A stretch of DNA of 64,000 nt, taken from Bacteroidota bacterium. Lineage in GTDB: Bacteria > Bacteroidota > Bacteroidia > B-17B0 > Aurantibacillaceae. Numbering within the stretch: position 1 is the first letter of the stretch; the number at the start of each line of letters is the position of its first letter. The position numbers were made by a program, and so were the translations under genes. The notes beneath the pieces were generated by a model that saw nothing but the letters and a program-made list of their open reading frames with translations, did no database searches and was not told the origin of the DNA. Shown here one piece after another: positions 7,673-59,970 of the stretch. Location: assembly GCA_017303905.1 (NCBI GenBank), contig JAFLBH010000002.1:1-64000 (forward strand), read 5' to 3'.

Positions 7673-7673
7673 T

Positions 7674-8543
7674 TTATAGTACGTTGTTACTTTGTTCCTT
7701 TATTTTCTCTAATTCATCTTTCATTAACACAACCAGTTTCTGTATTTCAGCATCATTCGCTTTAGAACCAATCGTATTAATTTCCCGGCCTATTTCTTGC
7801 GTAATGAAATTTAATTTTCTTCCGCTCGAAGGATCTTTCATGGTTTTAAGGAAATAATCGCAATGTGTTTTTAAACGTACTTTCTCTTCGTTGATGTCGA
7901 GTTTTTCAACGTAATAAATTAGCTCTTGCTCAAAACGATTGATGTCGATTTTTTCTGTTCCGATTACTTCGGTGATGTTACCTTTAATACGTTTCTTTAT
8001 ATTTTCAATACGGAGCTTATCCAATTCTTTAATTTTTTCTAAGCAATCCATAATGATGTTTAATCGCTCCGTAAAGTCTTTTTCAATTGACTTTCCTTCA
8101 TCATCTCTGAATTTGTTCAAGCCTTCAATAGCTACTTCAATAACTGTTTTAATTTCTTTCCACTCGTTTTCGTTCGCTTCTTTACGTTCAGATTTTAAAA
8201 CATCAGGAAGTTTTATGATTTGCGACAATAATGAATCACTGTTTTCATTTAAATCATTAGCCAAATCTTTAAGCTTTTTATGGTAGGCTTTGGCTAAATC
8301 GGTGTTAATATCAACAGGTGTTTCCTGATTTTTACTTTCCACAAAAATGCTTAAGTCAATTTTACCGCGCTCTAATTTTTTACTGATATCGTTACGTAAT
8401 TCTAATTCAAACTCACGATAAATACTGGAAAGACGTAAACTCAAATCCATTCCTTTGCTATTCAGAGAACGAATTTCAACATTCACAGTTTTATCGGTAA
8501 ACTCTTTCGTGGCTTTTCCAAAGCCTGTCATTGATTTAATCAT
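7674..8543 (-). CDS. YicC/YloC family endoribonuclease
   Basis: This 289-aa protein starts with the family hallmark MIKSMTGFGKA and ends with EINTIGSKANDAEIQKLV, the conserved YicC N and C termini, joined by a helical central region. Family members are cytoplasmic endoribonucleases reported to cleave structured RNA or small RNAs. In many genomes the gene precedes gmk, but here miaA follows. The start codon overlaps the end of the EamA gene by 4 bp (8540-8543), so the two are translationally coupled. Confidence 0.95.
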   Translation of the reverse strand: MIKSMTGFGKATKEFTDKTVNVEIRSLNSKGMDLSLRLSSIYREFELELRNDISKKLERGKIDLSIFVESKNQETPVDINTDLAKAYHKKLKDLANDLNENSDSLLSQIIKLPDVLKSERKEANENEWKEIKTVIEVAIEGLNKFRDDEGKSIEKDFTERLNIIMDCLEKIKELDKLRIENIKKRIKGNITEVIGTEKIDINRFEQELIYYVEKLDINEEKVRLKTHCDYFLKTMKDPSSGRKLNFITQEIGREINTIGSKANDAEIQKLVVLMKDELEKIKEQSNNVL

Positions 8544-10313: not shown

Positions 10314-10489
10314 TTTCTAATAACTCTCAATCTACTTAATTACCAGATTGTCAGTGTTGTACAGGCTTTGTTTGTAAATTTGATTTCAGAACTCTCTAAA
10401 TTAACATTTGTTGACTAATAACTGCATCAAACTTGCATGCCAACCTATGAAACAAAGTTTTTAATATTGTATAACGTAAATTTACTATT

Positions 10490-11257
10490 ATGAAAAGATT
10501 GCTCGTGTTTTGTTTCCTTTCGTTGGCTATTGTTGCTAACGCGCAAAAAGGAAAAAAAATTGACCCAACAAAAACATCTGAAACCGCAGAAAGACCAAGC
10601 GTAGATTCGGTGATGGGTTACGCATTGTATGAGGGTATGACTGCTGCTGCTGCCTTGGAATATCAATTACCGTCTGAATCTGAGACAGATCCGGTAACAG
10701 GTAAAACAACATATTTTAAAGATGTAAAAAAGCGTAATGATTCAATTCGCGTTGCCTTTGTTAAGGCGATGAAAAGCAGAGATCAGGTTTTTTATATTAA
10801 GAACCGTAGGCCTAAAAAAGCAGGCGAGAGATGGAAGCTTTGCATCAACATCGTAAATAAAGACACAAATCTTACTAAGTGTTTTAATGATTCTTCTATT
10901 ATTGATCCTGAAACAAAAATGGTGCTGTTTGAAAAGCAGGTTGGAGATTCAATATACATGTTAATATTAGTAGAAGCATATAACAAGCGTTTAAATACTT
11001 GCGGTAAAGAAAAAGAGGCTAAGTTGTATTTTGCAAGATGGCATCCTAAAAACAATGAGGCAAAATGGAAAGTGAAAACATTCAGTTCTTGTTATAAAAC
11101 GATTACAAATATGACCAAAACGCCAATTAGCGAATGGGATAAAAAATCTGTTTTAACAATTAGCTATCATAAAGGATCTAATTTTTACGACATCTTCTTT
11201 GATCCGGAACATCCTGAGAAAGGAATACAAAGTAATAAAGATAGCGGAAACGAATAA
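10490..11257 (+). CDS. Secreted protein of unknown function
   Basis: This 255-aa protein has a clear signal peptide (MKRLLVFCFLSLAIVANAQ) and then a soluble domain with several Cys (WKLCINIV, KCFND, LNTCGKEKE, FSSCYKT) that could form disulphides in the periplasm. I recognise no domain. It is a single-gene unit, preceded by about 175 bp of non-coding DNA with TTTG-rich promoter-like sequence and followed by a strong terminator shared with the convergent gene at 11295. Confidence 0.75.
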   Translation: MKRLLVFCFLSLAIVANAQKGKKIDPTKTSETAERPSVDSVMGYALYEGMTAAAALEYQLPSESETDPVTGKTTYFKDVKKRNDSIRVAFVKAMKSRDQVFYIKNRRPKKAGERWKLCINIVNKDTNLTKCFNDSSIIDPETKMVLFEKQVGDSIYMLILVEAYNKRLNTCGKEKEAKLYFARWHPKNNEAKWKVKTFSSCYKTITNMTKTPISEWDKKSVLTISYHKGSNFYDIFFDPEHPEKGIQSNKDSGNE

Positions 11258-11258
11258 A

Positions 11259-11287
11259 AAAAAGCCCCCGGATTCAGGGGGCTTTTT
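11259..11287. terminator. Bidirectional terminator
   Basis: An 11-bp perfect stem (AAAAAGCCCCC / GGGGGCTTTTT) surrounds a short loop. A-rich and T-rich flanks allow it to stop transcription from both the secreted-protein gene on the left and the convergent gene on the right. Confidence 0.9.
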
Positions 11288-11294
11288 ATTTTAC

Positions 11295-11819
11295 TTAGTT
11301 CTTGAAATAACTTTCCTCTAAAGGAGAATTGGCAACTATTATGTAATAAGCTTCCTCTTCTTTAAATAGATAATACAATACTTCGCCATTCGAAAATTTC
11401 AAAATGCTCGACTCGTACTTTTCACTTTGAAATACATTTTCCTTTTTAAAATTCTTTTTTATTTCAGCCTCCAAACTATTAAAGTTATTAAATGATTGAT
11501 TTTGGGTGAATGAAATAAACACAGTTCTTTTAGATTTTTTACCGTTTGAAAAAATGGCAGTTTCCGCTGACCCTTCAACAGAGAGATCGTTAGCCGATTT
11601 ATTGGAATAATAGTCTGATTTATTAATTAATTTATCGCCAACATTTTTATGCTCTTTGGCAATTAAACGAAAGCCTTTAGAGCTTAGTTGCTGAATTAAT
11701 TCCTCTTCAGGATAATTGATACAGTTTTTAACAAAGTCAAAATCGAGATTCTGCGCAATCGAGAAATTAAAAAACAGTAATAGAATAAAGAATGAAGTAA
11801 ATCGTGTATAAAGATTCAT
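11295..11819 (-). CDS. Small secreted protein of unknown function
   Basis: The protein is about 174 aa with a signal peptide (MNLYTRFTSFFILLLFFNFSIAQN) when started at 11819. An upstream in-frame ATG at 11852 would add eleven residues before the signal and is less likely. The mature part is charged and contains no recognised domain. It lies between two terminators (11259 and 11908), so it is transcribed alone. Confidence 0.65.
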   Translation of the reverse strand: MNLYTRFTSFFILLLFFNFSIAQNLDFDFVKNCINYPEEELIQQLSSKGFRLIAKEHKNVGDKLINKSDYYSNKSANDLSVEGSAETAIFSNGKKSKRTVFISFTQNQSFNNFNSLEAEIKKNFKKENVFQSEKYESSILKFSNGEVLYYLFKEEEAYYIIVANSPLEESYFKN

Positions 11820-26656: not shown

Positions 26657-29600
26657 ATGTTAGATAAAGTCATACACTTTTCTATAAAAAACAAAATGAT
26701 AATAGGCCTGCTTACGTTTGCGCTTATCATTTGGGGAAGTTACTCAGTAACTAAACTCCCGATAGATGCTGTACCTGATATTACAAATAATCAAGTACAG
26801 GTTATTACCGTGTCGCCATCATTGGCAGCAGAAGATATTGAAAGATTGGTAACCTTTCCGGTGGAACAAACAATGGCAAACATTCCGGGCATTGAGGAAG
26901 TGCGTTCATTTTCACGCTTTGGCTTATCCGTTGTAACAATTGTATTTAAAGATGATATCGATGTATATTGGGCTCGTCAGCAGGTTAACGAACGCCTCAA
27001 TGAAGCCAAAACTATTATTCCGCAAGGAGTTGGTATTCCTGAATTAGCCCCTGTTACCACAGGCTTGGGCGAAATTTACCAGTATGTTATTCATACCAAA
27101 AAGGGATATGAAAAAATATATACTCCAATGGAATTACGAACCATTCAGGATTGGATTGTTCGCAGACAATTGTTGGGAACAGAAGGCGTAGCAGATGTAA
27201 GTAGCTTTGGTGGTTATTTAAAGCAATACGAAATAGCTTTAAATCCTGATAAACTGCGAAGCATGAATATCAGCATCAATGATGTATTTACAGCTTTGCA
27301 AAAAAACAATCAAAATACCGGAGGTGCTTATATTGATAAAAAACCAAACGCTTATTTTATAAGAAGTGAAGGTTTAATAGGCACGAAAGAAGACATCGAA
27401 AAAATTGTTGTAAAAGTAAACCCGAACGGAATTCCGGTATTAATACGCAATGTAGCGAGCGTAGATTTTGGTCATGCCACACGTTATGGTGCAATGACAC
27501 GCAATGATGAAGGCGAAGTGGTTGGTGCTATTGTTATGATGCTGAAAGGTGCAAATTCATCGGAAGTAATTTCCAATGTAAAAGAGCGCATAGCACAAAT
27601 AGAAAAAAATCTTCCTGAAGGTGTTGTGATAGAACCTTTCCTCGATAGAACAAAATTAGTAAACAACGCCATTGGTACAGTAACTAAAAACCTTGCTGAA
27701 GGAGCGTTAATTGTTATTTTCGTTTTGGTATTGTTACTCGGAAATTTTAGAGCAGGATTAATTGTTGCTTCTGTAATTCCATTAGCTATGTTATTTGCCA
27801 TAGCATTAATGAACTTATTTGGTGTGTCGGGCAATTTAATGAGTTTGGGTGCAATTGATTTCGGATTAATTGTGGATGGTGCTGTAATCATAGTAGAAGC
27901 CACACTACATCACCTAACTGGTAGAACGCTGTTACAAAAATTTGGTGGCAGAAAATTAAGTCAAGATGAAATGAATCTTGAAGTTTATGAGTCTGCCTCT
28001 AAAATAAGAAGTTCAGCAGCATTTGGTGAAATCATAATTTTAATTGTGTATTTACCAATTCTTGCATTGGTTGGTATTGAAGGTAAAATGTTTAAGCCGA
28101 TGGCTCAAACGGTTTCCTTTGCCATTCTTGGTGCGTTTATTCTTTCTTTAACTTATGTACCAATGGCAGCTGCTTTGTTTTTAAATAAAAACACAGTTCA
28201 TAAAAGAAACATCTCTGACCGCATTATGGATTTCTTTCAGAAAATTTATAAGCCGATGATACACGTAGCATTAAAGCGAAAAGTAGCTGTTTTAATTACA
28301 GCCGTGGTGATGTTTGTTTTTAGCATTGTAGTATTTATAAACATGGGCGGTGAGTTTATACCAACATTAGATGAAGGCGATTTCGCAGTAGAAACAAGGG
28401 TGTTACAGGGTAGTTCTATTTCACAAACTATTGAAGCTTCATTAAGAGCAGCAAAAATATTAAAGGCTAATTTTCCTGAAGTAAAAGAAGTAATTGGAAA
28501 AATTGGTTCGGGCGAGATACCAACTGATCCTATGCCTGTTGAAGCTTGTGACTTAATGGTAATCTTAAAAGATAAATCGGAATGGACAAGTGCCGAAACG
28601 AGGGATGAATTAGCCGAGAAAATGGCAGAAGCGTTGGAGGATATTCCGGGTGTTACTTTTGGATTTCAACAACCAATACAAATGCGATTTAATGAATTAA
28701 TGACTGGCGCAAAGCAGGATGTTGTTGTAAAAGTATATGGCGAAGATTTAAATGCGCTGACTGATTATGCAACTAAACTTGGTAAAATTGCAGCTACTAT
28801 TGATGGCGCACAAGACATCTATGTTGAACAGGTGACCGGACAATCGCAAATAGTAGTAAAATTCGATAGAGATAAAATTGCACAATTTGGTTTAAATATA
28901 GAAGATGTAAACCAAGTTATAAAAGCAGGATTTGCAGGAGAGTCTGCCGGATATGTTTATGAAGGAGAAAAACGATTTGATATGGTTGTTCGTTTGGAAA
29001 AAGAAACCCGTCAGAGTTTAGACGATATTAAAGGCTTGTTTGTTACCGCACCAAACGGAAATCAAGTTCCCGTTTCACAATTAGCAGAAATTGAATTTAA
29101 GATTAGTCCAAACCAAATACAACGTGATGATGCCAAACGTAGAATTACCGTTGGATTTAATGTAAGGGGAAAGGATATAGAAAGTGTTGTAAAAGAAATG
29201 CAAGACAGAGTAAACAAAGAAGTAAAGTTTAGCGCAGGCTATTATCCAACTTACGGTGGCACATTTAAAAATTTAATTGAGGCTCGTCAGCGTTTATCAA
29301 TTGCGGTTCCGGTAGCATTACTTTTAATATTTATGTTACTGTTCTTCACCTTTCATTCCTTCAAACAAAGTATTCTCATTTTTACAGCCATTCCACTTTC
29401 TGCAATTGGAGGCGTATTTGCACTTTGGTTAAGAGATATGCCATTCAGTATTTCGGCAGGGGTTGGTTTTATTGCCTTGTTTGGAGTAGCTGTATTGAAT
29501 GGAATAGTTTTGATAGCAGAGTTTAACAGATTAAAAGAAGAAGGTATGACAGATATAAAAGAAATAATCCTGAAAGGAACATCTGTGCGATTGCGTCCTG

Positions 29601-31033
29601 TAATTATGACTGCATTAGTTGCCTCGTTGGGCTTTTTACCAATGGCATTATCGCACGGATCGGGTGCCGAAGTTCAGAAACCATTAGCAACAGTTGTAAT
29701 TGGAGGTTTGCTAACTGCAACATTACTCACCTTGTTAGTATTACCTGTGTTGTATTGGTTCTTTGAGAAAATTGGCAAATCAAAATCAACCATTCAAGTA
29801 AATGCTTCAATTATTATTCTGTTAATGTTAGTACCATCATTAAGCAACGCTCAAACGAATAACGGAATTACTTTGCAACAAGCAATTGATGGAGCATTAA
29901 AGAACAATGCAGGTATTAAAGCCGGGAATTACGAAATTGATTATAGTAAAGCCTTAAAGAAAACATCAACAGACATTGGTAAAACTAATGTGTCGTTAAT
30001 GTATGGGCAATACAACTCCATTAATACAGATAATAATATTTCAGTTTCACAAAGCATTCCCTTTCCAACGTTGTTCAGTAGCCAAAGTCAATTGAACAAA
30101 GCCAATATTAAGGGAAGTGAATTAAAATTGCAGTTAACTCAAAACGAATTAATAAATCAAGTAAAATCGATCTATTATTATTTAGAGTATCTGCAAGCTG
30201 AAAGAAATTTGTTGTTGAGTCAGGATAGTATCTTCACTTCTTTCTCTAATGCATCAATCAGTCGTTTTAAAGCAGGTGAAAATACACTACTTGAAAAAAC
30301 TACTGCTGAAACACAATTGATGGAAATAAAAAATTTGTTGGCGCAAAATCAATCGAATGTTTTTATTTATCAATCACAGTTGCAAGCATTAATGAATAGT
30401 AAAGTGCCTGTGCAGATAGAACAAAAGACTATTACGAAAATAGAACTAAACCTGCCGTCAGATAGCACAGCGTATTCACAAAATCCTTATTTGCTTTATA
30501 TGAAACAGCAAATTGAAATAAGCAATAAGCAGAAGAAAGTGGAGACTGCAAAGGTGCTACCTGAATTTACTTTAGGCTATTTCAATCAATCTTTAATAGG
30601 TTATCAAAATACAAATGGAACAGATACCTATTACGATGCTTCAAAGCGTTTTACAGGATTTCAGGTTGGAGTTTCAATTCCGCTATGGATTGTTCCACAA
30701 ACCGCTAAAGTAAAAGCTGCCGGATTAAATCAAAAAGTAATGGAAAGCAATTTTGAACAATATCAAACGAATGTTCAAAATCAATATGCTCAATACTTGC
30801 AAGAATATATGCAGGATAAGAATACCTTGGAGTATTATGAAAAAAGTGCGCTTCCGAATGCCGAATTGATAATCAAACAGGCAGACAAAGGGTTTAAATA
30901 CGGAGAGATTGGTTATGTGGAATATTTACAAAGCATTAGAACGGCTTTAACAATTAAGACAAACCATCTATCAAGCTTAAATCAATACAATCAAAGCATA
31001 ATAAAACTGGAATTCTTATTAGGTAAAAAATAA
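26657..31033 (+). CDS. CzcA-type heavy-metal RND pump fused to a TolC-like outer-membrane factor
   Basis: This 1458-aa protein joins two parts. Residues 1 to about 1040 are an RND proton/metal antiporter with twelve membrane helices; helix 4 carries AIDFGLIVDGAVIIVEA (Asp-Asp-Glu proton relay), close to the HME1-type motif of Zn/Co/Cd pumps. A second signal-like hydrophobic stretch (ASIIILLMLVPSLSNAQ, about 1052-1070) then leads into an outer-membrane efflux domain (about 1075-1458) with the TolC-family helices. This inner/outer-membrane fusion is known in Bacteroidota. The periplasmic adaptor follows 15 bp downstream, so pump, channel and adaptor form one CzcCBA-like unit. The substrate is inferred from the motif: divalent zinc, cobalt or cadmium. 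Confidence 0.92.
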   Translation: MLDKVIHFSIKNKMIIGLLTFALIIWGSYSVTKLPIDAVPDITNNQVQVITVSPSLAAEDIERLVTFPVEQTMANIPGIEEVRSFSRFGLSVVTIVFKDDIDVYWARQQVNERLNEAKTIIPQGVGIPELAPVTTGLGEIYQYVIHTKKGYEKIYTPMELRTIQDWIVRRQLLGTEGVADVSSFGGYLKQYEIALNPDKLRSMNISINDVFTALQKNNQNTGGAYIDKKPNAYFIRSEGLIGTKEDIEKIVVKVNPNGIPVLIRNVASVDFGHATRYGAMTRNDEGEVVGAIVMMLKGANSSEVISNVKERIAQIEKNLPEGVVIEPFLDRTKLVNNAIGTVTKNLAEGALIVIFVLVLLLGNFRAGLIVASVIPLAMLFAIALMNLFGVSGNLMSLGAIDFGLIVDGAVIIVEATLHHLTGRTLLQKFGGRKLSQDEMNLEVYESASKIRSSAAFGEIIILIVYLPILALVGIEGKMFKPMAQTVSFAILGAFILSLTYVPMAAALFLNKNTVHKRNISDRIMDFFQKIYKPMIHVALKRKVAVLITAVVMFVFSIVVFINMGGEFIPTLDEGDFAVETRVLQGSSISQTIEASLRAAKILKANFPEVKEVIGKIGSGEIPTDPMPVEACDLMVILKDKSEWTSAETRDELAEKMAEALEDIPGVTFGFQQPIQMRFNELMTGAKQDVVVKVYGEDLNALTDYATKLGKIAATIDGAQDIYVEQVTGQSQIVVKFDRDKIAQFGLNIEDVNQVIKAGFAGESAGYVYEGEKRFDMVVRLEKETRQSLDDIKGLFVTAPNGNQVPVSQLAEIEFKISPNQIQRDDAKRRITVGFNVRGKDIESVVKEMQDRVNKEVKFSAGYYPTYGGTFKNLIEARQRLSIAVPVALLLIFMLLFFTFHSFKQSILIFTAIPLSAIGGVFALWLRDMPFSISAGVGFIALFGVAVLNGIVLIAEFNRLKEEGMTDIKEIILKGTSVRLRPVIMTALVASLGFLPMALSHGSGAEVQKPLATVVIGGLLTATLLTLLVLPVLYWFFEKIGKSKSTIQVNASIIILLMLVPSLSNAQTNNGITLQQAIDGALKNNAGIKAGNYEIDYSKALKKTSTDIGKTNVSLMYGQYNSINTDNNISVSQSIPFPTLFSSQSQLNKANIKGSELKLQLTQNELINQVKSIYYYLEYLQAERNLLLSQDSIFTSFSNASISRFKAGENTLLEKTTAETQLMEIKNLLAQNQSNVFIYQSQLQALMNSKVPVQIEQKTITKIELNLPSDSTAYSQNPYLLYMKQQIEISNKQKKVETAKVLPEFTLGYFNQSLIGYQNTNGTDTYYDASKRFTGFQVGVSIPLWIVPQTAKVKAAGLNQKVMESNFEQYQTNVQNQYAQYLQEYMQDKNTLEYYEKSALPNAELIIKQADKGFKYGEIGYVEYLQSIRTALTIKTNHLSSLNQYNQSIIKLEFLLGKK

Positions 31034-48579: not shown

Positions 48580-49143
48580 ATGATGGTAATCTATATTAAA
48601 AATATGGTTTGTGATCGCTGCAAAATGGCGGTGAAATTTGAGTTAACTAAACTTGGAATTAATACAACAAGTATTGACCTTGGTGAGATTACTATTGATA
48701 ATGAATTAAGTGCCGATAAAAAGGAAGCACTATCAATAGCCTTAAAAGAAATTGGTTTTGAAATATTGGATGATTCTAAAGCCAAAACGATAGAAAAAAT
48801 AAAAACAGAAATCATTTATCTAATTCATCACAATGATAATGATGTTCGTATCAATTATTCAAAATTTATTGAGGAAAAACTTAAACGTGATTATAACTAT
48901 TTGAGTAATCTTTTTTCAGAGATTGAGGGAACTACTATTGAAAAGTATATTATTTTACAGAAGATAGAGAGAGTAAAGGAACTCCTTGTGTATAATCAGC
49001 TTTCCTTGAGTGAAATTGCTGACCAAATGGGGTATAGTAGTGTTGCTTATTTATCAGGGCAATTCAAAAAAGTAACAGGTCTAACCCCAAGTTACTTTAA
49101 AACTATTAAGGAAAACAAAAGAAAATCATTAGATAAAATTTAA
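48580..49143 (+). CDS. AraC-family regulator with N-terminal HMA-like domain
   Basis: This 187-aa protein fuses an HMA-like N terminus (YIKNMVCDRCKMAVKFEL, one CxxC pair, about 3-70) to an AraC-type C-terminal domain with two helix-turn-helices (KIERVKELLVYNQLSLSEIADQMGYSSVAYLSGQFKKVTGLTPSYFK). It probably senses Cu(I) or another soft metal and activates the adjacent copper genes. An AGGAGG lies at 48571-48576, unusual in this phylum, 3 bp before ATG 48580 and 6 bp before ATG 48583, so the second may be the true start. Direct repeats upstream of copA are candidate binding sites. Confidence 0.88.
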   Translation: MMVIYIKNMVCDRCKMAVKFELTKLGINTTSIDLGEITIDNELSADKKEALSIALKEIGFEILDDSKAKTIEKIKTEIIYLIHHNDNDVRINYSKFIEEKLKRDYNYLSNLFSEIEGTTIEKYIILQKIERVKELLVYNQLSLSEIADQMGYSSVAYLSGQFKKVTGLTPSYFKTIKENKRKSLDKI

Positions 49144-49227: not shown

Positions 49228-51657
49228 ATGGAAACCTTAAAAAATACAATCGAAATTCCTCTTGTCGGTATGGATAGCGAGCATTGCGCTATGCTTATTG
49301 ATGGTGGTTTATCTAAATTGGAAGGTATATCAAAGCATCGTGTAGACTTTAATAATAATAAGGCGGTTATTGAATTCAATTCTAAAAAGCCTGAATTCAG
49401 TTACATTGTAAAAACTGTCCGAGATTTAGGTTATGATGTAGAAAGTATTAAGAAAACTTTTCCAATCACAGGAATGACCTGTGCTTCTTGTGCGGTAAGT
49501 ACCGAATCAATTTTGAAATCCTTAGATGGTGTAATTAGTGTAGCCTCCAACTTTGCAAATGCAAGCGCAACTGTCGAATTCATTCCTGATCTTGTAACTC
49601 TTTCTCAAATGAAAATCGCATTACAATCAATCGGTTATGACATGATAATTGATGAGGAAAATGCACACGACTTAAAGGAGAAAATTCATCAGAATCTTTA
49701 TGTCGAATTACGAAATAAAACAATTTGGGCGGTAGCACTCTCTTTTCCTGTTGTCATTATTGGTATGTTCTTTATGGAAATGCCATACGCAAATCAAATA
49801 ATGATGGTCTTAACAACTCCTGTTCTTTTTTGGTTTGGCAGGAACTTTTTTATTAATGCTTACAAGCAAATCAAGCACTTTAGTGCTAATATGGATACTT
49901 TGGTTGCATTAAGCACAGGGATAGCTTATTTGTTTAGTGCATTTAATACATTTTATCCTGAGTTTTGGCATAAGAGAGGCTTACATGCACATGTTTATTT
50001 TGAAGCAGCCTCAGTGGTAATAGCATTTATTTTATTAGGAAAGCTGTTAGAGGAAAAGGCAAAGTCTAACACGTCATCAGCCATTAAGAAATTAATAGGT
50101 TTACAACCTAAGACTGTTACAGTCATTCATGAAGGCGGTCATGAAATGGAAATGCCGATTTCAAAAGTACACATGAGTAATATTCTTCTGGTGAAACCCG
50201 GTGATAAAATTCCGGTAGATGGTGAAGTAATAGAAGGCGTATCCTTTGTTGATGAAAGCATGATCAGTGGAGAACCTATTCCTGTAGAAAAACGACAAGG
50301 CGACAAAGTTTTTACCGGTACATTAAATCAAAAAGGTAGTTTCAAAATTAAGGCACTTAAAGTTGGAAGCGAAACTGTTCTTGCTCAAATAATAAAAATG
50401 GTGCAGGAAGCACAGGGAAGTAAGGCCCCGGTTCAGAAACTTGTAGATAAAATTGCAGCGATATTTGTCCCCGTTGTAATAGCTCTTTCCATATTAAGTT
50501 TAATGGTTTGGTGGATTTTTGGTGGTGACAATGGGCTTACACAAGGATTACTTTCAATGGTAACCGTATTAGTAATTGCCTGTCCATGCGCATTAGGATT
50601 GGCAACTCCCACAGCTATTATGGTTGGGGTTGGAAAAGGTGCCGAGCATGGCATATTAATTAAAGATGCCGAAAGTCTTGAATTGGCAAAAAATGTTACT
50701 GCAATTATTTTAGACAAAACCGGAACTATAACAGAAGGGAAGCCCGAAGTAACTGATTTCATTATTTCGGATATAATAAGTGCAGATCAATCAAAACAAA
50801 TCTTGATGGCCATTGAATCGCAATCTGCTCATCCGCTTGCCGAAGCTGTAAGTAAGTATTTGAAAAAGGATAATACAATTCCGATTCAATTAAATAGTAT
50901 TGAGAATATTACTGGTAAAGGCGTTAAAGCAATTATAGATGGGCAAGCTTATTTTGTAGGGAACAAGGCTTTAATGAACGAAAATAATATTCAAATAAAT
51001 TCCGCTGATTCTGAAAAAGCAGCTGCCCTGCAAAGCGAAGCTAAAACAGTAACTTTCTTTTCTGATTCAAAACAGGTTTTAATAGTGATAGCAATAGCGG
51101 ATAAAGTAAAAGTTAATTCAGCCAAAGCTATAGAGCATTTGCAAAATCAGGGAATAGAAGTATACATGCTTACTGGCGACAATACACAAACAGCCTCTGC
51201 GGTAGCTAAACAAGTCGGATTAATAAATTACAAAGCGGAATTTCTACCCGCTCAAAAATCCGAGTTTATTAAAGAATTACAGGCTAAGGGAAAAGTTGTG
51301 GCAATGGTAGGTGATGGCATTAATGATTCTCAAGCTTTAGCACAATCAGATGTTAGTATTGCGATGGGTAAGGGCTCAGATATTGCTATTGATGTAGCCA
51401 AGATGACAATCATTTCTTCAGATCTTATGCTCATTCCGGAGGCGATCAAACTATCAAGGCTTACAGTAAAAACTATCAGGCAAAATTTATTTTGGGCATT
51501 TATCTATAACATCATAGGGATCCCAATTGCAGCCGGACTTCTGTATCCATTTAATGGATTTATTCTTAACCCAATGATTGCTGGTGCTGCAATGGCATTA
51601 AGTTCAGTTAGTGTTGTAAGCAATAGCTTATGGCTTAAATTAAAAACTATAAATTAA
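49228..51657 (+). CDS. copA: Cu(I)-exporting P1B ATPase
   Basis: This 809-aa pump has two HMA regions: the first (residues 10-70) is degenerate ([10 protein letters not shown] with one Cys), the second (about 78-140) is intact ([10 protein letters not shown]). Helix 6 has [17 protein letters not shown] (CPC plus GLATP of Cu/Ag pumps). The phosphorylation site is [11 protein letters not shown] and the ATP site has [11 protein letters not shown] with GKGVKA. It exports Cu(I)/Ag(I) to the periplasm. The copZ-like gene follows 6 bp later, and the AraC-HMA regulator lies upstream. Confidence 0.95.
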
Positions 51658-51663
51658 AAAAAC

Positions 51664-51873
51664 ATGGAAACTTTAAAATTCAAAACCAATATAAAATGTA
51701 CAGGATGTGTTGCAAAAGTAACGCCCTTGCTTAATAACGAATCAGAGATTGAAAAGTGGGAAGTTGACATCTATAACCCTGAAAAAATTCTGACAGTTGA
51801 AACAACGCATATCGATGCACAGAAAGTAATCGAAACAATAGAAAAAGCCGGATTTAAAGCAGAAAAAATATGA
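51664..51873 (+). CDS. CopZ-like copper chaperone (HMA domain)
   Basis: This 69-aa single HMA domain has the metal loop IKCTGCVAKV (CxxC) and the typical beta-alpha-beta ending IETIEKAGFKAEKI. It likely shuttles Cu(I) in the cytoplasm to CopA. The stop overlaps a small downstream ATG by 4 bp. Confidence 0.9.
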   Translation: METLKFKTNIKCTGCVAKVTPLLNNESEIEKWEVDIYNPEKILTVETTHIDAQKVIETIEKAGFKAEKI

Positions 51874-51976: not shown

Positions 51977-53239
51977 ATGATAAGTAACTTCATAACATGG
52001 GCATTAAAAAACAGAATCATCGTTCTGCTAATTGCAGCGGGTGTGACTGTTTATGGGATAATTGCGGTTAAGAATACCCCTGTTGATGCTATTCCGGATT
52101 TATCCGAGAATCAGGTAATTATTTTTACTGAATGGATGGGCAGAAATCCGCAAATCATCGAAGACCAAATAACGTACCCTTTGGTAAGTAACCTACAAGG
52201 TATTCCTAAAGTAAAAAACATCAGAGCTAACAGCATGTTTGGAATGAGTTTCGTTTTTGTCATTTTTGATGATGACGCAGATATTTATTGGGCAAGGACA
52301 AGGGTTTTAGAAAGATTGAATTATGCCCAGCGTTTGTTGCCTGAAGGAATAACACCTACACTTGGGCCTGATGGAACCGGATTAGGACATGTTTATTGGT
52401 ACACTTTAGATGCACCCGGATATGATTTAGGTGAATTACGGGCATTACAAGATTGGTATGTTCGCTTTGCATTACAAACAGTTGAAGGTGTGAGTGAAGT
52501 GTCTTCTTTCGGGGGATTTCAAAGACAATATCAAGTCGTTGCCGACCCAAATAAGCTAAGATACTATAATGTAACATTGATGGATCTTAATGAAAAAATT
52601 GCTGCAAATAACAACGATGTTGGAGGACGGAAATTTGAACAATCTGATATTGGTTATATCATAAAAGGTTCAGGCTATATCAAAAATATTAAGGAGATTG
52701 AAGAGATTCCTTTGAAAACTATTAATTCGACTCCAATACGAGTAAAAGATGTCGCTACTGTGCAAATGGGAGGCGATTTAAGATTAGGGATTATTGATGA
52801 GAACGGACAAGGAGAAAAAGTTGGTGGAATAGTAATTATGCGCTATGGAGAGAATGCAAAAGATGTCATTGACAGAATAAAAGAAAAGCTTCCCGAAATA
52901 GAAAAAGGTCTACCTGTCGGTGTAAAATTTAAAACAGCTTATGACAGGTCAGATTTAATTGAAGCTACAATAGCTACATTAAAAGAGGCAGTAATTGAAG
53001 AGATTATTGTAGTTGCAATCGTGTTACTAATATTTTTATTTCATGTAAGAAGCGCTTTGATAGTAATTATCACAATACCAATTTCTATTTTAATTTCATT
53101 TATTATGATGAGTTGGTTTGGGATAACATCTAATATTATGTCGCTGGCCGGTGTAGCGTTGGCGGTTGGTGACTTAGTGGATGCGGGTATTGTGATGGTA
53201 GAAAACGCATTAAAATCAATAAGTGGTGAAGACGATTAA
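51977..53239 (+). CDS. cusA: CusA-type Cu/Ag RND pump, N-terminal part (interrupted gene)
   Basis: The 420 residues match the start of CusA: TM1, the porter domains, and helix 4 with SLAGVALAVGDLVDAGIVMVENALKS (HME4-type, Cu/Ag, with the Asp and Glu relay). It ends at TAA (53237-53239) in the cytoplasmic loop between helices 4 and 5. The same frame continues after eight codons with an ATG at 53264. Read through, the total of about 1060 residues is normal for CusA. It could be a nonsense mutation, a split pump, or a sequence error. Confidence 0.85.
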   Translation: MISNFITWALKNRIIVLLIAAGVTVYGIIAVKNTPVDAIPDLSENQVIIFTEWMGRNPQIIEDQITYPLVSNLQGIPKVKNIRANSMFGMSFVFVIFDDDADIYWARTRVLERLNYAQRLLPEGITPTLGPDGTGLGHVYWYTLDAPGYDLGELRALQDWYVRFALQTVEGVSEVSSFGGFQRQYQVVADPNKLRYYNVTLMDLNEKIAANNNDVGGRKFEQSDIGYIIKGSGYIKNIKEIEEIPLKTINSTPIRVKDVATVQMGGDLRLGIIDENGQGEKVGGIVIMRYGENAKDVIDRIKEKLPEIEKGLPVGVKFKTAYDRSDLIEATIATLKEAVIEEIIVVAIVLLIFLFHVRSALIVIITIPISILISFIMMSWFGITSNIMSLAGVALAVGDLVDAGIVMVENALKSISGEDD

Positions 53240-53263
53240 TTTGAGCAAAATAATTTAACTGAT

Positions 53264-55159
53264 ATGTTATCAAACGAAGAAAGAGAAAAGAAGATTGAAA
53301 ATTCTTCTAAATTGATTGGAAAGGCAGTGTTCAATTCCATACTTGTCACTTTGGTGTCATTTAGCCCGATCCTTTTTTTAGAGGGGCAGGAACATAAACT
53401 ATTTTCCCCACTTGTGTGGACAAAAACTTTCGCTATGATAGGATCTGCCTTCGTTGTAGTATTCCTTGTTCCTGTTCTTATGACTATGTTTTTAAAAGGA
53501 AATGTTAGGCCTGAAAGCAAACACCCTGTTTCACGCTTTTTCCTTTGGATGTATAATCCGCTAATACGGTGGTGTTTGAAATGGAAAAAGACTACTATCG
53601 GATTAAGTATTGCTTTGGTATTAGGAAGCGTTCCGCTTGTTTTAAACCTTGGTACGGAATTTATGCCTCCTTTAGATGAAGGTTCATTGTTATTCATGCC
53701 TGTTACATTGCCTGATGTTTCAAATTCTGAGGTAAAGAGAATTATGCAAGTACAGGATAAACTAATTATGACCGTGCCGGAGGTGCAAAATGTATTGGGA
53801 AAAGCAGGAAGAGCAAATACAGCAACAGACAATGCGCCAATAAGCATGATCGAAAGTATTATTCTGTTAAAGCCCCAAAAAGAATGGAGAGAAGGATTTA
53901 CCAAGGATGATATAATTAATGACCTGAATTCGAAAATGCAAATTCCGGGCGTAATTAATGGCTGGACTCAACCAATCATTAACCGCATCAATATGCTTTC
54001 AACCGGAATCAGAACTGATGTTGGGGTGAAAATATATGGACAAAGTCTTGACACCATAAACAAACTTGCTCAAAAATTTAAAAAGGAATTAGAAGGAATT
54101 GATGGAGTTAAGGATTTATATGTTGATCCAATTGTAGGAGGTAAATATGTGGATATAAAAATCAAAAAAGATGAAATTGGTCGTTACGACCTAAGTGTAG
54201 ATGATGTGAATATGTTTATTGAAACTGCATTAGGAGGAATGAATGTAACTACTACGGTTGAAGGAAGACAACGTTTTACTGTTAATGTAAGATTTGCACA
54301 GGATTTTAGGGACAAAATTGATAAACTAAAGAGACTACAGTTACAAACAATGGATTATGGGCCAATACCATTGTCTGCTGTTGCAGAAATTAAAATAAAC
54401 GAAGGCCCGCCAATGATTACTTCTGAGAACGCTATGTTGCGAGGAACATTGTTATTCAACGTGAGAGATAGGGATTTAGGAAGTACGGTAAATGATGCTA
54501 AAAAGAAACTTGAAAGCGTGATAAAGAAATTGCCTAAAGGTTATTTCTTAACATGGAGTGGTCAGTATGAAAACCAAGTTCGGGCAAATGAGAGATTAAC
54601 TATGATAATTCCTATAGTTCTTGTGATAATTATGGTCATACTTTATTTCACCTTCCATACTTTCAGAGAAGTTCTTATCGTTTTGTCAGCGGTTCCGGTT
54701 GCTTTGGTTGGTGGGGCGTATTCTTTGCATTTCTTTAATGTAAACTTCTCTGTGGCTGTTGCCGTAGGTTTTATTGCCTTGTTTGGTGTAGCGGTCGAAA
54801 CAGGAGTGCTGATGTTGGTCTATATGAATAACTCAGTATTTAAGAAAGTAAAAAAGGTGAAATCGGAAAACAAAGAATTGACAAGCCAAGATGTTGAGGA
54901 CGCTATTTACGATGGCGCAGCTTTACGACTACGCCCAAAACTTATGACAGTGTTAGTGGATATTATTGGTCTAATGCCGGTTTTACTTGCAACAGGAACA
55001 GGAAGCGATGTAATGAAGCCCATTACTATTCCGTTTGTATTTGGGTTGATTACCTCCACTTTATTTGTGCTAATTGTGTTACCAGTCCTTTATGCATTGG
55101 TAAGAGAATACGAGCTAAGAAAACACGGAAAATTAATTGTTCAGGAATTTGAAGATTAA
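53264..55159 (+). CDS. cusA: CusA-type Cu/Ag RND pump, C-terminal part (interrupted gene)
   Basis: The 631 residues continue the same frame as the upstream part and cover helices 5-12 and the second periplasmic half: FSPILFLEGQEHKLFSPLVWTKTFA, the signature PPLDEGSLLFMPVT, Met residues in PISMIESI and INRINMLSTGI that match CusA copper ligands, and the final helices. The ATG at 53264 allows separate translation. It stands 2 bp before the TolC gene. Both halves are otherwise intact, with no second stop. Confidence 0.85.
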   Translation: MLSNEEREKKIENSSKLIGKAVFNSILVTLVSFSPILFLEGQEHKLFSPLVWTKTFAMIGSAFVVVFLVPVLMTMFLKGNVRPESKHPVSRFFLWMYNPLIRWCLKWKKTTIGLSIALVLGSVPLVLNLGTEFMPPLDEGSLLFMPVTLPDVSNSEVKRIMQVQDKLIMTVPEVQNVLGKAGRANTATDNAPISMIESIILLKPQKEWREGFTKDDIINDLNSKMQIPGVINGWTQPIINRINMLSTGIRTDVGVKIYGQSLDTINKLAQKFKKELEGIDGVKDLYVDPIVGGKYVDIKIKKDEIGRYDLSVDDVNMFIETALGGMNVTTTVEGRQRFTVNVRFAQDFRDKIDKLKRLQLQTMDYGPIPLSAVAEIKINEGPPMITSENAMLRGTLLFNVRDRDLGSTVNDAKKKLESVIKKLPKGYFLTWSGQYENQVRANERLTMIIPIVLVIIMVILYFTFHTFREVLIVLSAVPVALVGGAYSLHFFNVNFSVAVAVGFIALFGVAVETGVLMLVYMNNSVFKKVKKVKSENKELTSQDVEDAIYDGAALRLRPKLMTVLVDIIGLMPVLLATGTGSDVMKPITIPFVFGLITSTLFVLIVLPVLYALVREYELRKHGKLIVQEFED

Positions 55160-55161
55160 AA

Positions 55162-56439
55162 ATGATGAATACATATAAATATTTAATAAAAAGCATTCTA
55201 CTGATTACAGTTTTTTTGCTTGACTCATCAAAAATGTTTTCACAGGTAATGTCACTTGAAAATGTCTTAAATGAGATTGAAAAAAATCAACCTGATTTGA
55301 AAAAATACGATGCAAAAATTAATGCGTATGACACTTATGCTACAGGCGCAAAGGCATTGGATGCACCACAGGTTGGCGCAGGTTTCTTTATGACTCCTTA
55401 TAATCCTCAGATGTGGAAGGCTGACCCGGCAATGAACACAAACGGCATGGGGTCTTTTATGTTGTCAGCTCAACAAATGATCATGAATCCTAAAAAGTTA
55501 AATGCAAATTCAAATTACATGAAAAGCATGTCGGGTATTGAAAAGGAAATGAAAGGCTCGATGAAAAACGAACTCTTTTCTATGGCTAAAATGAGTTACA
55601 ATGAGTGGGTCATTCTAAAAAGAAGGAGAGCCATACTTATGGAAAGTGAGAATATTTTAAAATACCTTATCGAGTCAACTGAGCTAAGATATAAATATGG
55701 AATGGATAAGCTCAACGCTTATTACAAAGCAAAGGGTATGTTAGGAGACGTTCAAACTATGATGGTAATGACAAATCAAGAAATCAATCAAAAAATGATT
55801 GAATTAAATACTTTAATGAATCGTGACAAAAAACTCTCTTTTGATGTAGATACTTTAATAAAGTTTAATGAATATGAAAACGTGTTGATTGATAGTGCTG
55901 CAATCATGTCGGCAAGGAGTGACTTCAAGATTCTTAAGCAAAACGAAAACCTATTACGAACTAAACAGACATTTGAAAACTCGAAAAGACTCCCGGACTT
56001 TGGTTTAAAATACGATCACATGCTTGCCTTTGGAAAGCAGCCACAGCAGTTCAGTTTAATGGCAATGGTAACAATACCTATCGCCCCTTGGTCATCTAAA
56101 ATGTATAAGTCAACTGTGAAGGGTTTAAATTATGAGATCGAAGCTGCTAAATTTGAGCAGCAAGGTTTTGTAAATAATGTAAGTGGGACTATTGAAAATA
56201 TCAAAGTAAAAATTAAGAATAAAAAACAACAGATTGAGCTTTTTGAAAAAGTTGTTATTCCATCTATGAAGAAAAATTACGAGACAACTTTGTTGGCATA
56301 TGAGCAGAATACAGAAGAATTATTTATGGTACTGGACGCTTGGCAAAACTTAAAATTAATGCAATTAAACTATATTGACCAGCTAATGGAATTAGCTGAA
56401 TTGCAAATTCAATACGAAAACCAACTTGAAATAAAATGA
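55162..56439 (+). CDS. TolC-family outer-membrane efflux protein (CusC-like)
   Basis: This 425-aa protein has a signal peptide (LLITVFLLDSSKMFSQ) and the repeated long helices of TolC/OEP proteins (MSLENVLNEIEKNQPDLKKYDAKINAYDTYATGAKALDAPQVGAG, then NENLLRTKQTFENSKRLPDFGLKYDHML). It should form the trimeric outer-membrane channel for the CusA pump. The sequence is unusually rich in Met (PQMWKADPAMNTNGMGSFML), which suits Cu(I). It overlaps the next gene by 4 bp. Confidence 0.9.
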   Translation: MMNTYKYLIKSILLITVFLLDSSKMFSQVMSLENVLNEIEKNQPDLKKYDAKINAYDTYATGAKALDAPQVGAGFFMTPYNPQMWKADPAMNTNGMGSFMLSAQQMIMNPKKLNANSNYMKSMSGIEKEMKGSMKNELFSMAKMSYNEWVILKRRRAILMESENILKYLIESTELRYKYGMDKLNAYYKAKGMLGDVQTMMVMTNQEINQKMIELNTLMNRDKKLSFDVDTLIKFNEYENVLIDSAAIMSARSDFKILKQNENLLRTKQTFENSKRLPDFGLKYDHMLAFGKQPQQFSLMAMVTIPIAPWSSKMYKSTVKGLNYEIEAAKFEQQGFVNNVSGTIENIKVKIKNKKQQIELFEKVVIPSMKKNYETTLLAYEQNTEELFMVLDAWQNLKLMQLNYIDQLMELAELQIQYENQLEIK

Positions 56440-57815
56440 TAATGCGTTTATTAAAAATATTATCTATCGTTCTAATTTTTAGTTCTTGCAATAGCACGAA
56501 TGAGAAAGAACATAACGATATGAATGAACACCACAACAGTGAACATAAAAATCACGTTGCAACAAGCCAAGGCAAGAAGTACACTTGTCCTATGCATCCG
56601 GAAATTATAAAGGATGAACCGGGACAATGCCCCATTTGCAAAATGGATCTTGTTGAGAAAAAAGAAGAGGCTTCTTCAGATAAGAAATATACATGCCCTA
56701 TGCATCCTGAAATTATTCAAGATAAAACTGGAATATGCCCAAAATGTAAAATGGATTTGGTTGAAATGAAAAATGAGGAAACCAAAGAAGAATATACAGA
56801 GTTAGACATTCTACTTAAACCTACTAATAGATATGTGGTCTCTCAGGTTAAAACGGTAAGTATGCAACAAAAGAAGATTCCTTTGTTGATTAACGCCACT
56901 GGAAAAGTCAGTTATGATACACGGGAAATTTCTACTATATCATCAAGAGTAGCGGGAAGGATTGAAAAATTGTACATCAAATACTTATACCAACCTTTAA
57001 GTAAAGGGCAAAAGCTAATGGATATTTATAGTAAGGAACTACTAACAGAACAAGAGAATTACATTTATCTTTTAAAAAATGATCCTGACAATACTGCTCT
57101 TATTAAAGCTGCTGAAGATCGTTTAGCACTTCAAGGATTAACAGCAGAGCAAATCAAGAAAATAAAAGGAGATAAAAAGGCAATAGAATATGTGACAATT
57201 TATAGCCCGTTTTCGGGACACTTGCATGATTTAATTGGAGAAAAAACAAATTCAGCAACAATGACTTCGATGAACGAACAAATACAACAAGAACTTTTGA
57301 TTAAGGAAGGGATGTATGTTCAAAAAGGTCAAGCTGTTTTTAATGTGTACAGCACAAAAAAACTTTGGGTATTATTAAGTATTTATACTGACAATCAAAA
57401 CATAGTTTCAAAAGGTCAGAATGTTTTGCTTACTGTTGACGGCAAACAATTATCCAATGGTAGTAAAATTGATTTTATAGAGCCTGAAATAAGAGCAGGA
57501 CAAAATACTCTTACTGCAAGAGTTTACATTTCCAACCCAAACAATTCAATTGAAGTTGGTTCGAATGTAAAGGCAACTATTGACGCAGGAGAACTAACAG
57601 GACTCTTCATTCCTGTTAGTTCTATTGTTGATTTAGGCAATAATAAAGTGGTGTTTTTAAAGGAGAACAATTTGTTTAGGGCCTGCAAAATTCAAACTGG
57701 TGTGATTGCAGATGGCATGATTGAAGTTATTTCAGGAATTACAGAAAGGGACGTTATTGCTGAGAATGCTCAATTGTTAATGGACAGTGAAAGTTTTATT
57801 AAAAGTGAAAACTAG
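56436..57815 (+). CDS. RND periplasmic adaptor with two heavy-metal-binding domains (CusB-like)
   Basis: This 459-aa lipoprotein (IFSSCNST) has a His-rich linker (EHNDMNEHHNSEHKNH) and two copies of a zinc-ribbon-like heavy-metal-binding domain (KYTCPMHPEIIKDEPGQCPICKMDL and KYTCPMHPEIIQDKTGICPKCKMDL, at about 45-115). Then come the barrel-sandwich (ISTISSRVAGRIEKLYIKY), an alpha-hairpin, and the beta-barrel regions. It should link CusA to the TolC channel and hand over Cu(I). The stop lies 4 bp before the ATG of the next adaptor. Confidence 0.9.
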   Translation: MIMRLLKILSIVLIFSSCNSTNEKEHNDMNEHHNSEHKNHVATSQGKKYTCPMHPEIIKDEPGQCPICKMDLVEKKEEASSDKKYTCPMHPEIIQDKTGICPKCKMDLVEMKNEETKEEYTELDILLKPTNRYVVSQVKTVSMQQKKIPLLINATGKVSYDTREISTISSRVAGRIEKLYIKYLYQPLSKGQKLMDIYSKELLTEQENYIYLLKNDPDNTALIKAAEDRLALQGLTAEQIKKIKGDKKAIEYVTIYSPFSGHLHDLIGEKTNSATMTSMNEQIQQELLIKEGMYVQKGQAVFNVYSTKKLWVLLSIYTDNQNIVSKGQNVLLTVDGKQLSNGSKIDFIEPEIRAGQNTLTARVYISNPNNSIEVGSNVKATIDAGELTGLFIPVSSIVDLGNNKVVFLKENNLFRACKIQTGVIADGMIEVISGITERDVIAENAQLLMDSESFIKSEN

Positions 57816-57819
57816 AAAC

Positions 57820-59019
57820 ATGAAAAATATTATCTCCTTAATTCTATTTACCTTACTACTGGGTGCTTGTACACAAAAGGAAGAAAAGGTGGAAAGTGAC
57901 GTATATTATACCTGTTCAATGGATCCGCAGGTAATAGAATCCAAACCGGGAAATTGTCCCATTTGTAAGATGCCACTTACAAAAGTAAAGAAGGATCACT
58001 CCACACATGAGGGAGGATTGAATCTTAGTGATCAACAAATTCAATTAGGGAACATTAAAACCGATGTACTGACAGAACATGAATTAGGCGATGAAATTCA
58101 ATTGACTGGAAGATTGACCATTGACCAAAATAAACAATGGTCTATAAGTTCAAGGGTAATGGGCAGAGTTGATAAACTATACATAAAGAACATAGGAGAA
58201 CCGATAAAAGAAGGTGATGTGGTTTATGAAATATACAGTGAGGACTTAAATTTAGCTGCACGGGAGTACAAATTAGCTTTAGATAAAAAACGTTCACTCA
58301 AAACTGAATCGTTTGATATTGACAAAATAATACAAAGTGCAAAAAACAAATTGAAGCTCTATGGTTTAACAGATAAACAAATAGAAAAACTAAATGATAC
58401 CGATTTGTCCAACGATCTTTTCAAAATTACAAGTAATGTTTCGGGGATTGTTTCTTCTGTGGATATTAAAGAAGGAGACTATGTGATGGAAGGAGGCAGT
58501 ATCTACCATGTAGCTGATTATGGAAATCTTTGGGCAGAAGCACAGGTTTTTATTGATGATCTATCTAAGGTTAAAGAAGGGATGAATGCTACACTTCGTT
58601 TTCCTGGATTAACCGAAAAAAAAGTTGAAAGTAAAATAACATTTATGAATCCGGAATTAGGTTCAGGAACTCAAATTAATTTAGTGAGAGTTGAAGTTCC
58701 CAATCTTGACAATCGTCTGAAAGTTGGAATGCAAGTAGATTTTTCGATTTTACTGAATACCAAATCTGTATTAGCTCTACCAACCGATGCGGTTTTATTA
58801 GAAGGCAAAGGAGCTTCCGTTTGGGTAAAAAAAGGCCATAACAAATTTGAAAGTGTTATGGTGCATACTGGGCTTGAAACAAACGAATACACACAAATTC
58901 TGCACGGATTGAAGAAAGGAGATACGATAGTTGTATCGGGCGCATATCTATTAAATAGCGAATACATGTTCAAAAAAGGTGCTAATCCGATGGAAGGACA
59001 TGATATGAGCAAAATGTAA
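57820..59019 (+). CDS. RND periplasmic adaptor with one heavy-metal-binding domain (CusB-like)
   Basis: This 399-aa lipoprotein (LLLGACTQK) has one metal-binding domain (YYTCSMDPQVIESKPGNCPICKMPL) and the usual adaptor modules (SSRVMGRVDKLYIKNIGEPIKEGD, alpha-hairpin, beta-barrel, and VVSGAYLLNSEYMFKKG near the end). Start 57820 begins the signal; the frame is open 33 bp upstream inside the previous gene. A second, non-identical adaptor next to the first suggests a heteromeric adaptor ring or specialisation for a second pump. Confidence 0.88.
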   Translation: MKNIISLILFTLLLGACTQKEEKVESDVYYTCSMDPQVIESKPGNCPICKMPLTKVKKDHSTHEGGLNLSDQQIQLGNIKTDVLTEHELGDEIQLTGRLTIDQNKQWSISSRVMGRVDKLYIKNIGEPIKEGDVVYEIYSEDLNLAAREYKLALDKKRSLKTESFDIDKIIQSAKNKLKLYGLTDKQIEKLNDTDLSNDLFKITSNVSGIVSSVDIKEGDYVMEGGSIYHVADYGNLWAEAQVFIDDLSKVKEGMNATLRFPGLTEKKVESKITFMNPELGSGTQINLVRVEVPNLDNRLKVGMQVDFSILLNTKSVLALPTDAVLLEGKGASVWVKKGHNKFESVMVHTGLETNEYTQILHGLKKGDTIVVSGAYLLNSEYMFKKGANPMEGHDMSKM

Positions 59020-59031
59020 AAAGGACGCAAT

Positions 59032-59358
59032 ATGAGCATAATACCATTTGTAGTAGAAGAATATCTTTATTCTTTAAAGCGAAAAAAGAAAGATGTAATT
59101 GCTGAAATAAAAGTATGGGGGAATTGTGGTAAATGTAAAACCCGGATTGAAAAAGCAGCAAAAGTCAAAGGGGTCAAAAAAGCTTTTTGGAATATGGAAA
59201 CCAAGATGCTTGAATTGACCTATAATCCTAAAACTGTTTCATTGGAAAAGATTCATGAGAAACTTGCCTTGGCTGGACATGATACTGAAAACATATATGC
59301 TCCCAAAGTCAAATACATTAAGCTACCAGATTGTTGTAAATATATTAGGGAAAAATAA
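59032..59358 (+). CDS. Heavy-metal-associated protein without signal (WGNCxxCK type)
   Basis: This 108-aa protein has the motif VWGNCGKCKTRIEKA, KKAFWNMETK and the C-terminal DCCKYIREK, like the proteins at 17243 and 42587. There is no lipoprotein signal; it may be cytoplasmic, perhaps a metal chaperone. It lies 12 bp after the second adaptor and 3 bp before the MerC-like gene. Confidence 0.82.
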   Translation: MSIIPFVVEEYLYSLKRKKKDVIAEIKVWGNCGKCKTRIEKAAKVKGVKKAFWNMETKMLELTYNPKTVSLEKIHEKLALAGHDTENIYAPKVKYIKLPDCCKYIREK

Positions 59359-59361
59359 AAC

Positions 59362-59970
59362 ATGAAATTACTCAGTAACATAGATAAATTTGGAACACTT
59401 GGGCTTTTCCTAACGGCTATATTCTCTCCTTGTTGTTTCCCACTTTTTGCCTTTGGGGCATCTGCTCTTGGACTTGGTAGCTTTGAATTATTTGGCGGAT
59501 GGACGATGTGGGTTTTTCAGATTATGGCAGTAATATCAATTATTGGACTTTATGTTAGTTATCGTTCGCATAAAAATATAATGCCGACTATCATTTCTGT
59601 TATTTCAGGAGGCCTTATTATTTTTTCATACAACTTTTATGACAGCGACCATTGGACAATATTACTTTATATTGGTATGTTTGGGCTTTTGTTTGCAACG
59701 GGACTTAACTACTATATAAATAAAAAACATATGACCTGTAAAACCTGTACAACATACAATGGTAAGACAGTTGAATTAAATTCAACATTGACTTGCCCAA
59801 ATTGTGGACACAAAAAAGAAGAAATCATGCCTACAGATGCCTGCGTTTACTTTTACGAATGCGAAAAATGTAAATCTGTACTAAAGCCTTTAAAAGGAGA
59901 TTGTTGCGTTTATTGCAGTTACGGGTCGGAAAAATGTCCGCCGATTCAGGCAGGAGATAAATGTTGTTAA
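59362..59970 (+). CDS. MerC-like membrane protein fused to a GDCCVxC zinc-ribbon domain
   Basis: This 202-aa protein has four hydrophobic helices (about 8-135) with a Cys pair in the first (IFSPCCFPLFAFGAS), as in the mercury transporter MerC. A hydrophilic C-terminal part follows with Cys pairs (TCKTCTTYNGKTVEL, TCPNCGHKKEE, YECEKCKSV) and the motif GDCCVYCSYGSEKCP, the GDCCVxC domain known from small heavy-metal-resistance proteins. It could import Hg(II) or bind it. It is the last gene of the island and stands at the end of the Cus block. Confidence 0.82.
   Translation: MKLLSNIDKFGTLGLFLTAIFSPCCFPLFAFGASALGLGSFELFGGWTMWVFQIMAVISIIGLYVSYRSHKNIMPTIISVISGGLIIFSYNFYDSDHWTILLYIGMFGLLFATGLNYYINKKHMTCKTCTTYNGKTVELNSTLTCPNCGHKKEEIMPTDACVYFYECEKCKSVLKPLKGDCCVYCSYGSEKCPPIQAGDKCC

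Follow-up and report, generated by a model that had tools for sequence, protein, structure and literature searches.

A copper gene cluster with a divided pump gene

The window, by which we mean the whole analysed stretch of 64,000 nucleotides from a Bacteroidota bacterium, carries a CusA pump gene divided by one stop codon, together with the following neighbours:

48580-49143, same strand as the cluster: AraC-type regulator (Pfam finds a helix-turn-helix only)
49228..51657, plus strand: CopA-type copper P-type ATPase, upstream of the pump (Pfam E1-E2_ATPase with HMA domains)
51664..51873, plus strand: small CxxC protein of 69 aa with a heavy-metal-associated look (read from the sequence)
51977..53239, plus strand: cusA-N, N-terminal CusA chain, 420 aa (ORF; TM1-TM4 and the first periplasmic loop)
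53237..53239, plus strand: TAA stop of cusA-N (sequence; a stop at the matching place in 81 non-redundant relatives)
53240..53263, plus strand: spacer between the chains, 24 bases (sequence and length vary among close relatives)
53264..55159, plus strand: cusA-C, C-terminal CusA chain, 631 aa (ORF; TM5-TM12 and the second periplasmic loop)
55162..56439, plus strand: cusC-like outer-membrane channel (Pfam OEP; lies 3' of the C-half in most related operons)
56436..57815, plus strand: cusB-like adaptor 1 with two heavy-metal-binding (HMBD) motifs (Pfam HlyD_D23, HMBD)
57787..59019, plus strand: cusB-like adaptor 2, start codon uncertain (Pfam HlyD_D23, HMBD)
59032..59358, plus strand: HMA-domain metallochaperone-like protein (Pfam HMA)
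59362..59970, plus strand: MerC-like membrane protein with a GDCCVxC domain (Pfam MerC; NCBIfam GDCCVxC)

When stops are read through, with the TAA as X, positions 51977-55159 form a frame of 1060 residues whose sole internal stop is the TAA at 53237-53239 (codon 421), and the ATG at 53264, 24 bases past it, opens the 631-aa ORF. The first-pass annotation had described a CusA frame split by a single in-frame TAA, with the same frame on both sides, a normal total length and an ATG 24 bp downstream, and all of this is borne out.

The two ORFs cover the Pfam ACR_tran profile exactly once and without overlap (cusA-N 2-414 and cusA-C 418-1021 of 1021 positions). Two half-ORFs matching adjacent parts of one family at such length are not there by chance. 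Against TIGR00914 (CusA/CzcA) the joined read-through chain scores 1085 bits and passes the curated cut-off of 701.45, while the N and C halves alone, at 468.5 and 608.1 bits, both fall below it. In place of one polypeptide with 12 TM helices there are two ORFs with four and eight helices in structure models, and 12 are reached only by both together, for which reason we class the CusA of the window as a two-chain variant and not as an ordinary member of TIGR00914.

The partner genes of a tripartite RND system, an OEP protein and two HlyD_D23 proteins, lie directly downstream of cusA-C, and this exact order (N, C, cusC, cusB1, cusB2) is found in 44 of 74 larger loci. The CopA-type ATPase is likely part of the same copper cluster. 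A similar cluster has been described as cargo of Elizabethkingia ICEEa1 (czcA/cusA, cnrB, merC and copA), in a passage that makes no mention of a split (PMC5458099). The N-terminal part of the AraC-type regulator starts like a metal-binding HMA domain (CxxC), and the GDCCVxC domain of the MerC-like protein is C-terminal and belongs to a family named for (seleno)protein members. Elsewhere in the window, an ORF of 1458 aa (26657-31033) consists of a whole RND permease (ACR_tran) fused to an outer-membrane channel domain (OEP 1270-1455), a puzzling fusion in that it would put a periplasmic channel on the cytoplasmic C-end of a permease. Across the class, corresponding RND hits often lie in frames of about 1450 aa.

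A search of the organism's own genome for a second CusA of this type, including a single-chain backup, found none, the next RND permeases having at most 39% identity. When the junction was scanned for internal promoters and terminators, sites turned up in about the same number as in shuffled sequences, and a search of the window for a suppressor tRNA found two tRNAs only, Gln and Ser, with ordinary anticodons.

Pump residues are divided between the two chains

AlphaFold models of the separate single chains, built from alignments (A3 and A4) of loci from genomes only, reached a middling mean pLDDT of 69.6 (N) and 69.1 (C). The last helix of the N model (387-419) is its fourth transmembrane one, in agreement with the earlier placing of the break between helices 4 and 5. 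The closest solved structure to the joined sequence is E. coli CusA: the N model aligns to its residues 1-423 (46% identity, Z 15.6, rmsd 7.5 Å over 398 residues) and the C model to residues 429-1043 (Z 33.6, rmsd 7.4 Å over 530 residues).

In E. coli CusA, M573, M623 and M672 hold Cu(I) together with E625, and D405, E939 and K984 relay protons and are required for transport; TM4 contains metal-path methionines as well as relay residues, and the cytosolic entrance is gated by M410 paired with M501 (PMC8092243). The Cu(I) triad lies on the C chain of the window pump as M145, M195 and M244 and is invariant in 81 of 81 split rows of our alignments, as is the E625 equivalent, E197, throughout alignment A2. 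The relay aspartate is on the N chain (D402, for D405), invariant in the 81 split and 13 single-chain rows, and its partners E512 and K559 (for E939 and K984) are on the C chain. The E939 equivalent is kept in 76 of the 81 split rows and replaced in 5, and that of K984 is kept in 69 and replaced in 12. The gate is divided in the same way: the M410 equivalent is M407 of the N chain (invariant in alignment A1), and the M501 equivalent, read from the alignment to E. coli CusA, is a methionine of the C chain. Both marks of an HME4 Cu(I)/Ag(I) CusA, the triad with E625 and the D405/E939/K984 relay, are thus found in the window. Judging by these residue positions, both the relay and the gate would be formed between the two chains, and since their residues sit on both, neither chain should pump alone. 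As a separate observation, the E939 or the K984 equivalent is absent from L015, L057 and about a dozen more of the split rows; such pumps might use another proton route.

The same cut recurs across Bacteroidota

Looking for the same split in related genomes had been proposed as a check, and it was found. When 199 relatives were searched with translation continued across stops, many of the genomes proved to have the break at this position, and in a class-wide sample of 395 genomes from 197 genera, 52 genomes in 35 genera gave strong matches, mostly in two pieces. We then examined the junctions of loci taken from whole genomes, from plasmids and from 80 named genome contigs. Both halves were complete in 140 loci, 106 split and 34 single-chain, 27 of the latter being out-of-class relatives brought in as such by a phylum search. 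The query for the genome contigs was made from split members, so the share of split loci there is no census; the whole-genome searches are less biased. Carriers of the split include Flavobacterium, Sphingobacterium, Chryseobacterium, Kaistella, Niastella, Terrimonas, Runella, Pontibacter, Cytophaga, Mucilaginibacter and Haliscomenobacter. RefSeq already holds two adjacent CDSs in Haliscomenobacter, Runella, Pontibacter and Mucilaginibacter plasmids, both labelled 'efflux RND transporter permease subunit', a generic name that they carry because each half is below the CusA/CzcA cut-off. The two-gene CusA is the normal form in a large Bacteroidota group, and the stop codon is no defect.

Two loci show irregularities of their own. 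In L023, a close relative with an N half 98-99% identical, the C-half breaks off after about 414 codons and the remainder is rearranged, and this may be a decayed copy or an assembly fault. In L059, on a Mucilaginibacter robiniae plasmid, the annotation gives the first adaptor as a pair of short neighbouring ORFs (10448-11808), and its CusB may be split as well.

The place of the cut is constant, in the cytoplasmic loop between helices 4 and 5, in 81 of the 86 non-redundant rows of one Bacteroidota clade, and the junction itself is variable. The C-half lies in frame 0, 1 or 2 relative to the N-half in 17, 28 and 36 of the 81 split rows. The N-half ends in TAA in 56, TGA in 21 and TAG in 4, and the C-half starts with ATG in 78. 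Stop and start overlap as a four-base ATGA in 11 of the 81, and close relatives have spacers of 24 (L009), 25 (L042), 60 (L011), 31 (L043), 12 (L012) and 9 (L013) bases, although start codons were picked by rule and individual distances may be off. L010, 96% identical, has a second in-frame TAA inside its spacer. Genes are inserted between the halves in L032, L051, L076 and L093, and three operons (L097, L105 and L129) are permuted, beginning with the C-half, followed by cusC, cusB1 and cusB2, and ending with the N-half. Where the halves are out of frame, interrupted by a gene or reversed, read-through cannot yield one chain.

The inserts in L032, L076 and L093 encode small heavy-metal-binding lipoproteins (1241-1477, 8058-8303 and 7287-8022 of the respective loci) with CPMHPE...CPKCGMDL motifs, that of L051 being another gene. 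The lipoproteins are perhaps periplasmic copper chaperones.

The split is old and both halves are under purifying selection

We built a quick tree with a simple model on the N plus C parts, leaving out the linker. The 81 split and five single-chain rows fall into one clade (support 100), and eight single-chain rows from other classes serve as its outgroup. The single-chain rows L014 with L065, L016, L017 and L073 are nested inside the clade, and the minimum number of changes between split and single-chain forms is 5, or 4 if only those forced by well-supported branches are counted. An AU test rejects a topology that groups every split row to the exclusion of these five (p 6e-36), which calls for re-fusions or for several splits. 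With the single-chain outgroup as root, one basal split followed by re-fusions is the simplest reading of the tree; several independent splits instead of re-fusions are less probable.

Compared with L010, dN/dS is 0.012 for the N half and 0.043 for the C half, at dS of 0.97 and 0.70, and compared with L042 it is 0.015 and 0.023. At the level of these sequence comparisons, such strong purifying selection on both halves is the signature of two working genes. The split is old and conserved, neither a recent mutation nor read-through. The N-half of L042 is 97% identical to that of the window, yet this locus belongs to a different family (f21), suggesting that the split pump was passed horizontally between families.

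A two-chain pump and its alternatives

The three readings offered by the first-pass annotation were a working two-chain pump, a recent nonsense mutation and programmed read-through, and the first is the one supported: the split is kept across many families, with halves in differing frames, separated by genes or in reversed order. We consider it very probable that cusA-N and cusA-C are two operon genes forming one two-chain Cu(I)/Ag(I) RND pump, counting in its favour conserved separate genes, purifying selection, residues and gene order, and inferring its assembly, stoichiometry, metal and transport. As a counterweight, a few clade relatives manage with one chain. Each half would have its own translation start, probably used through coupled re-initiation, and the chains would insert in the inner membrane as TM1-4 and TM5-12, with both free ends cytoplasmic at the TM4-TM5 loop. 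One N and one C chain would assemble into a CusA protomer, and three such protomers, by analogy three N and three C chains, would make a trimeric proton-driven pump working with the CusC channel and the pair of CusB adaptors whose genes lie downstream. In this arrangement the chain interface would be crossed by the proton relay (D on N; E and K on C) and by the cytosolic methionine gate. Specificity for Cu(I)/Ag(I) is suggested by the residues and the gene neighbours.

It is very unlikely that the two ORFs encode separate proteins with separate jobs. The halves can be some 4 kb apart and in either order, as separate proteins might be, but they cover the family profile exactly once, divide the invariant pump residues between them and remain together with cusC and cusB in a single operon, and the single-chain form occurs in several lineages inside the clade.

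Equally improbable is a recent nonsense mutation or an assembly error, with the pump a pseudogene or the TAA a sequencing mistake. The unchanged frame and normal length in the window are what such an event would leave; against it, a stop at the same place is present in many independent assemblies of relatives, including the nearest, L009 and L010 share it at dS 0.7-1.0, dN/dS is 0.01-0.04 on both sides of it, and the halves are elsewhere out of frame or reordered. Least credible of all is programmed read-through giving a full-length CusA besides a short N chain, since the halves share a frame in the window and 16 other rows but are out of frame in 64 of 81, the spacer is not conserved and in L010 holds a second in-frame TAA, other loci have inserted genes or reversed order, and TAA ends 28 of the 36 window ORFs of at least 200 aa.

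Beyond the two-chain pump as such, we regard it as rather unlikely, if worth considering, that the cut is non-neutral, with freed TM4/TM5 ends altering proton-metal coupling or permitting regulated assembly, and that genomes with two copies make hybrid N/C pumps. The freed ends adjoin the cytosolic metal gate and the proton-relay helix.

Comparison with known systems and meaning

The multidrug pump MdtB/MdtC is also made by two permease genes of one operon. Each of these is a full-length permease that arose by gene duplication, whereas neither chain of the split CusA is a complete permease. SecD/SecF, of the RND superfamily, is likewise an RND-fold machine with two chains in some bacteria and one in others; unlike CusA, which is cut 4+8 inside the first repeat, it is cut into 2 x 6 TM helices at the pseudo-repeat boundary (PMC8277102). 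The window pump resembles E. coli CusA (HME4 RND, PDB 3K07/3NE5; PMC8092243) in whole sequence and predicted fold, in the triad and E625, in the relay and in its partner genes cusC and cusB, and differs in having two chains, cut between TM4 and TM5, and two CusB-like adaptors after them. The closest single-chain relatives outside the clade, from other Bacteroidota classes and Pelobacter propionicus pPRO1, are 51-59% identical to the halves but have an unbroken frame of about 1045-1050 aa, and pPRO1 has TolC and one adaptor gene upstream of CusA.

In the open-licence literature that we searched, no paper describes a two-chain CusA, and within that scope the form seems new, even if the adjacent genes are already in RefSeq. 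CusA of Bacteroidota can escape annotation, each half scoring below the family cut-off and being named only as a permease subunit. Counts of CusA in surveys of metal-resistance genes may therefore be wrong, or false 'truncated' genes may be listed. The cut provides places chosen by nature at which CusA can be divided for labelling, cross-linking or chain exchange, and it opens the coupling role of TM4 to direct tests. For the family, our results indicate that a proton-driven RND pump can bear a cut midway through its first repeat and yet stay selected as a working pump over long evolution, and that such a pump can move between families and be re-joined several times.
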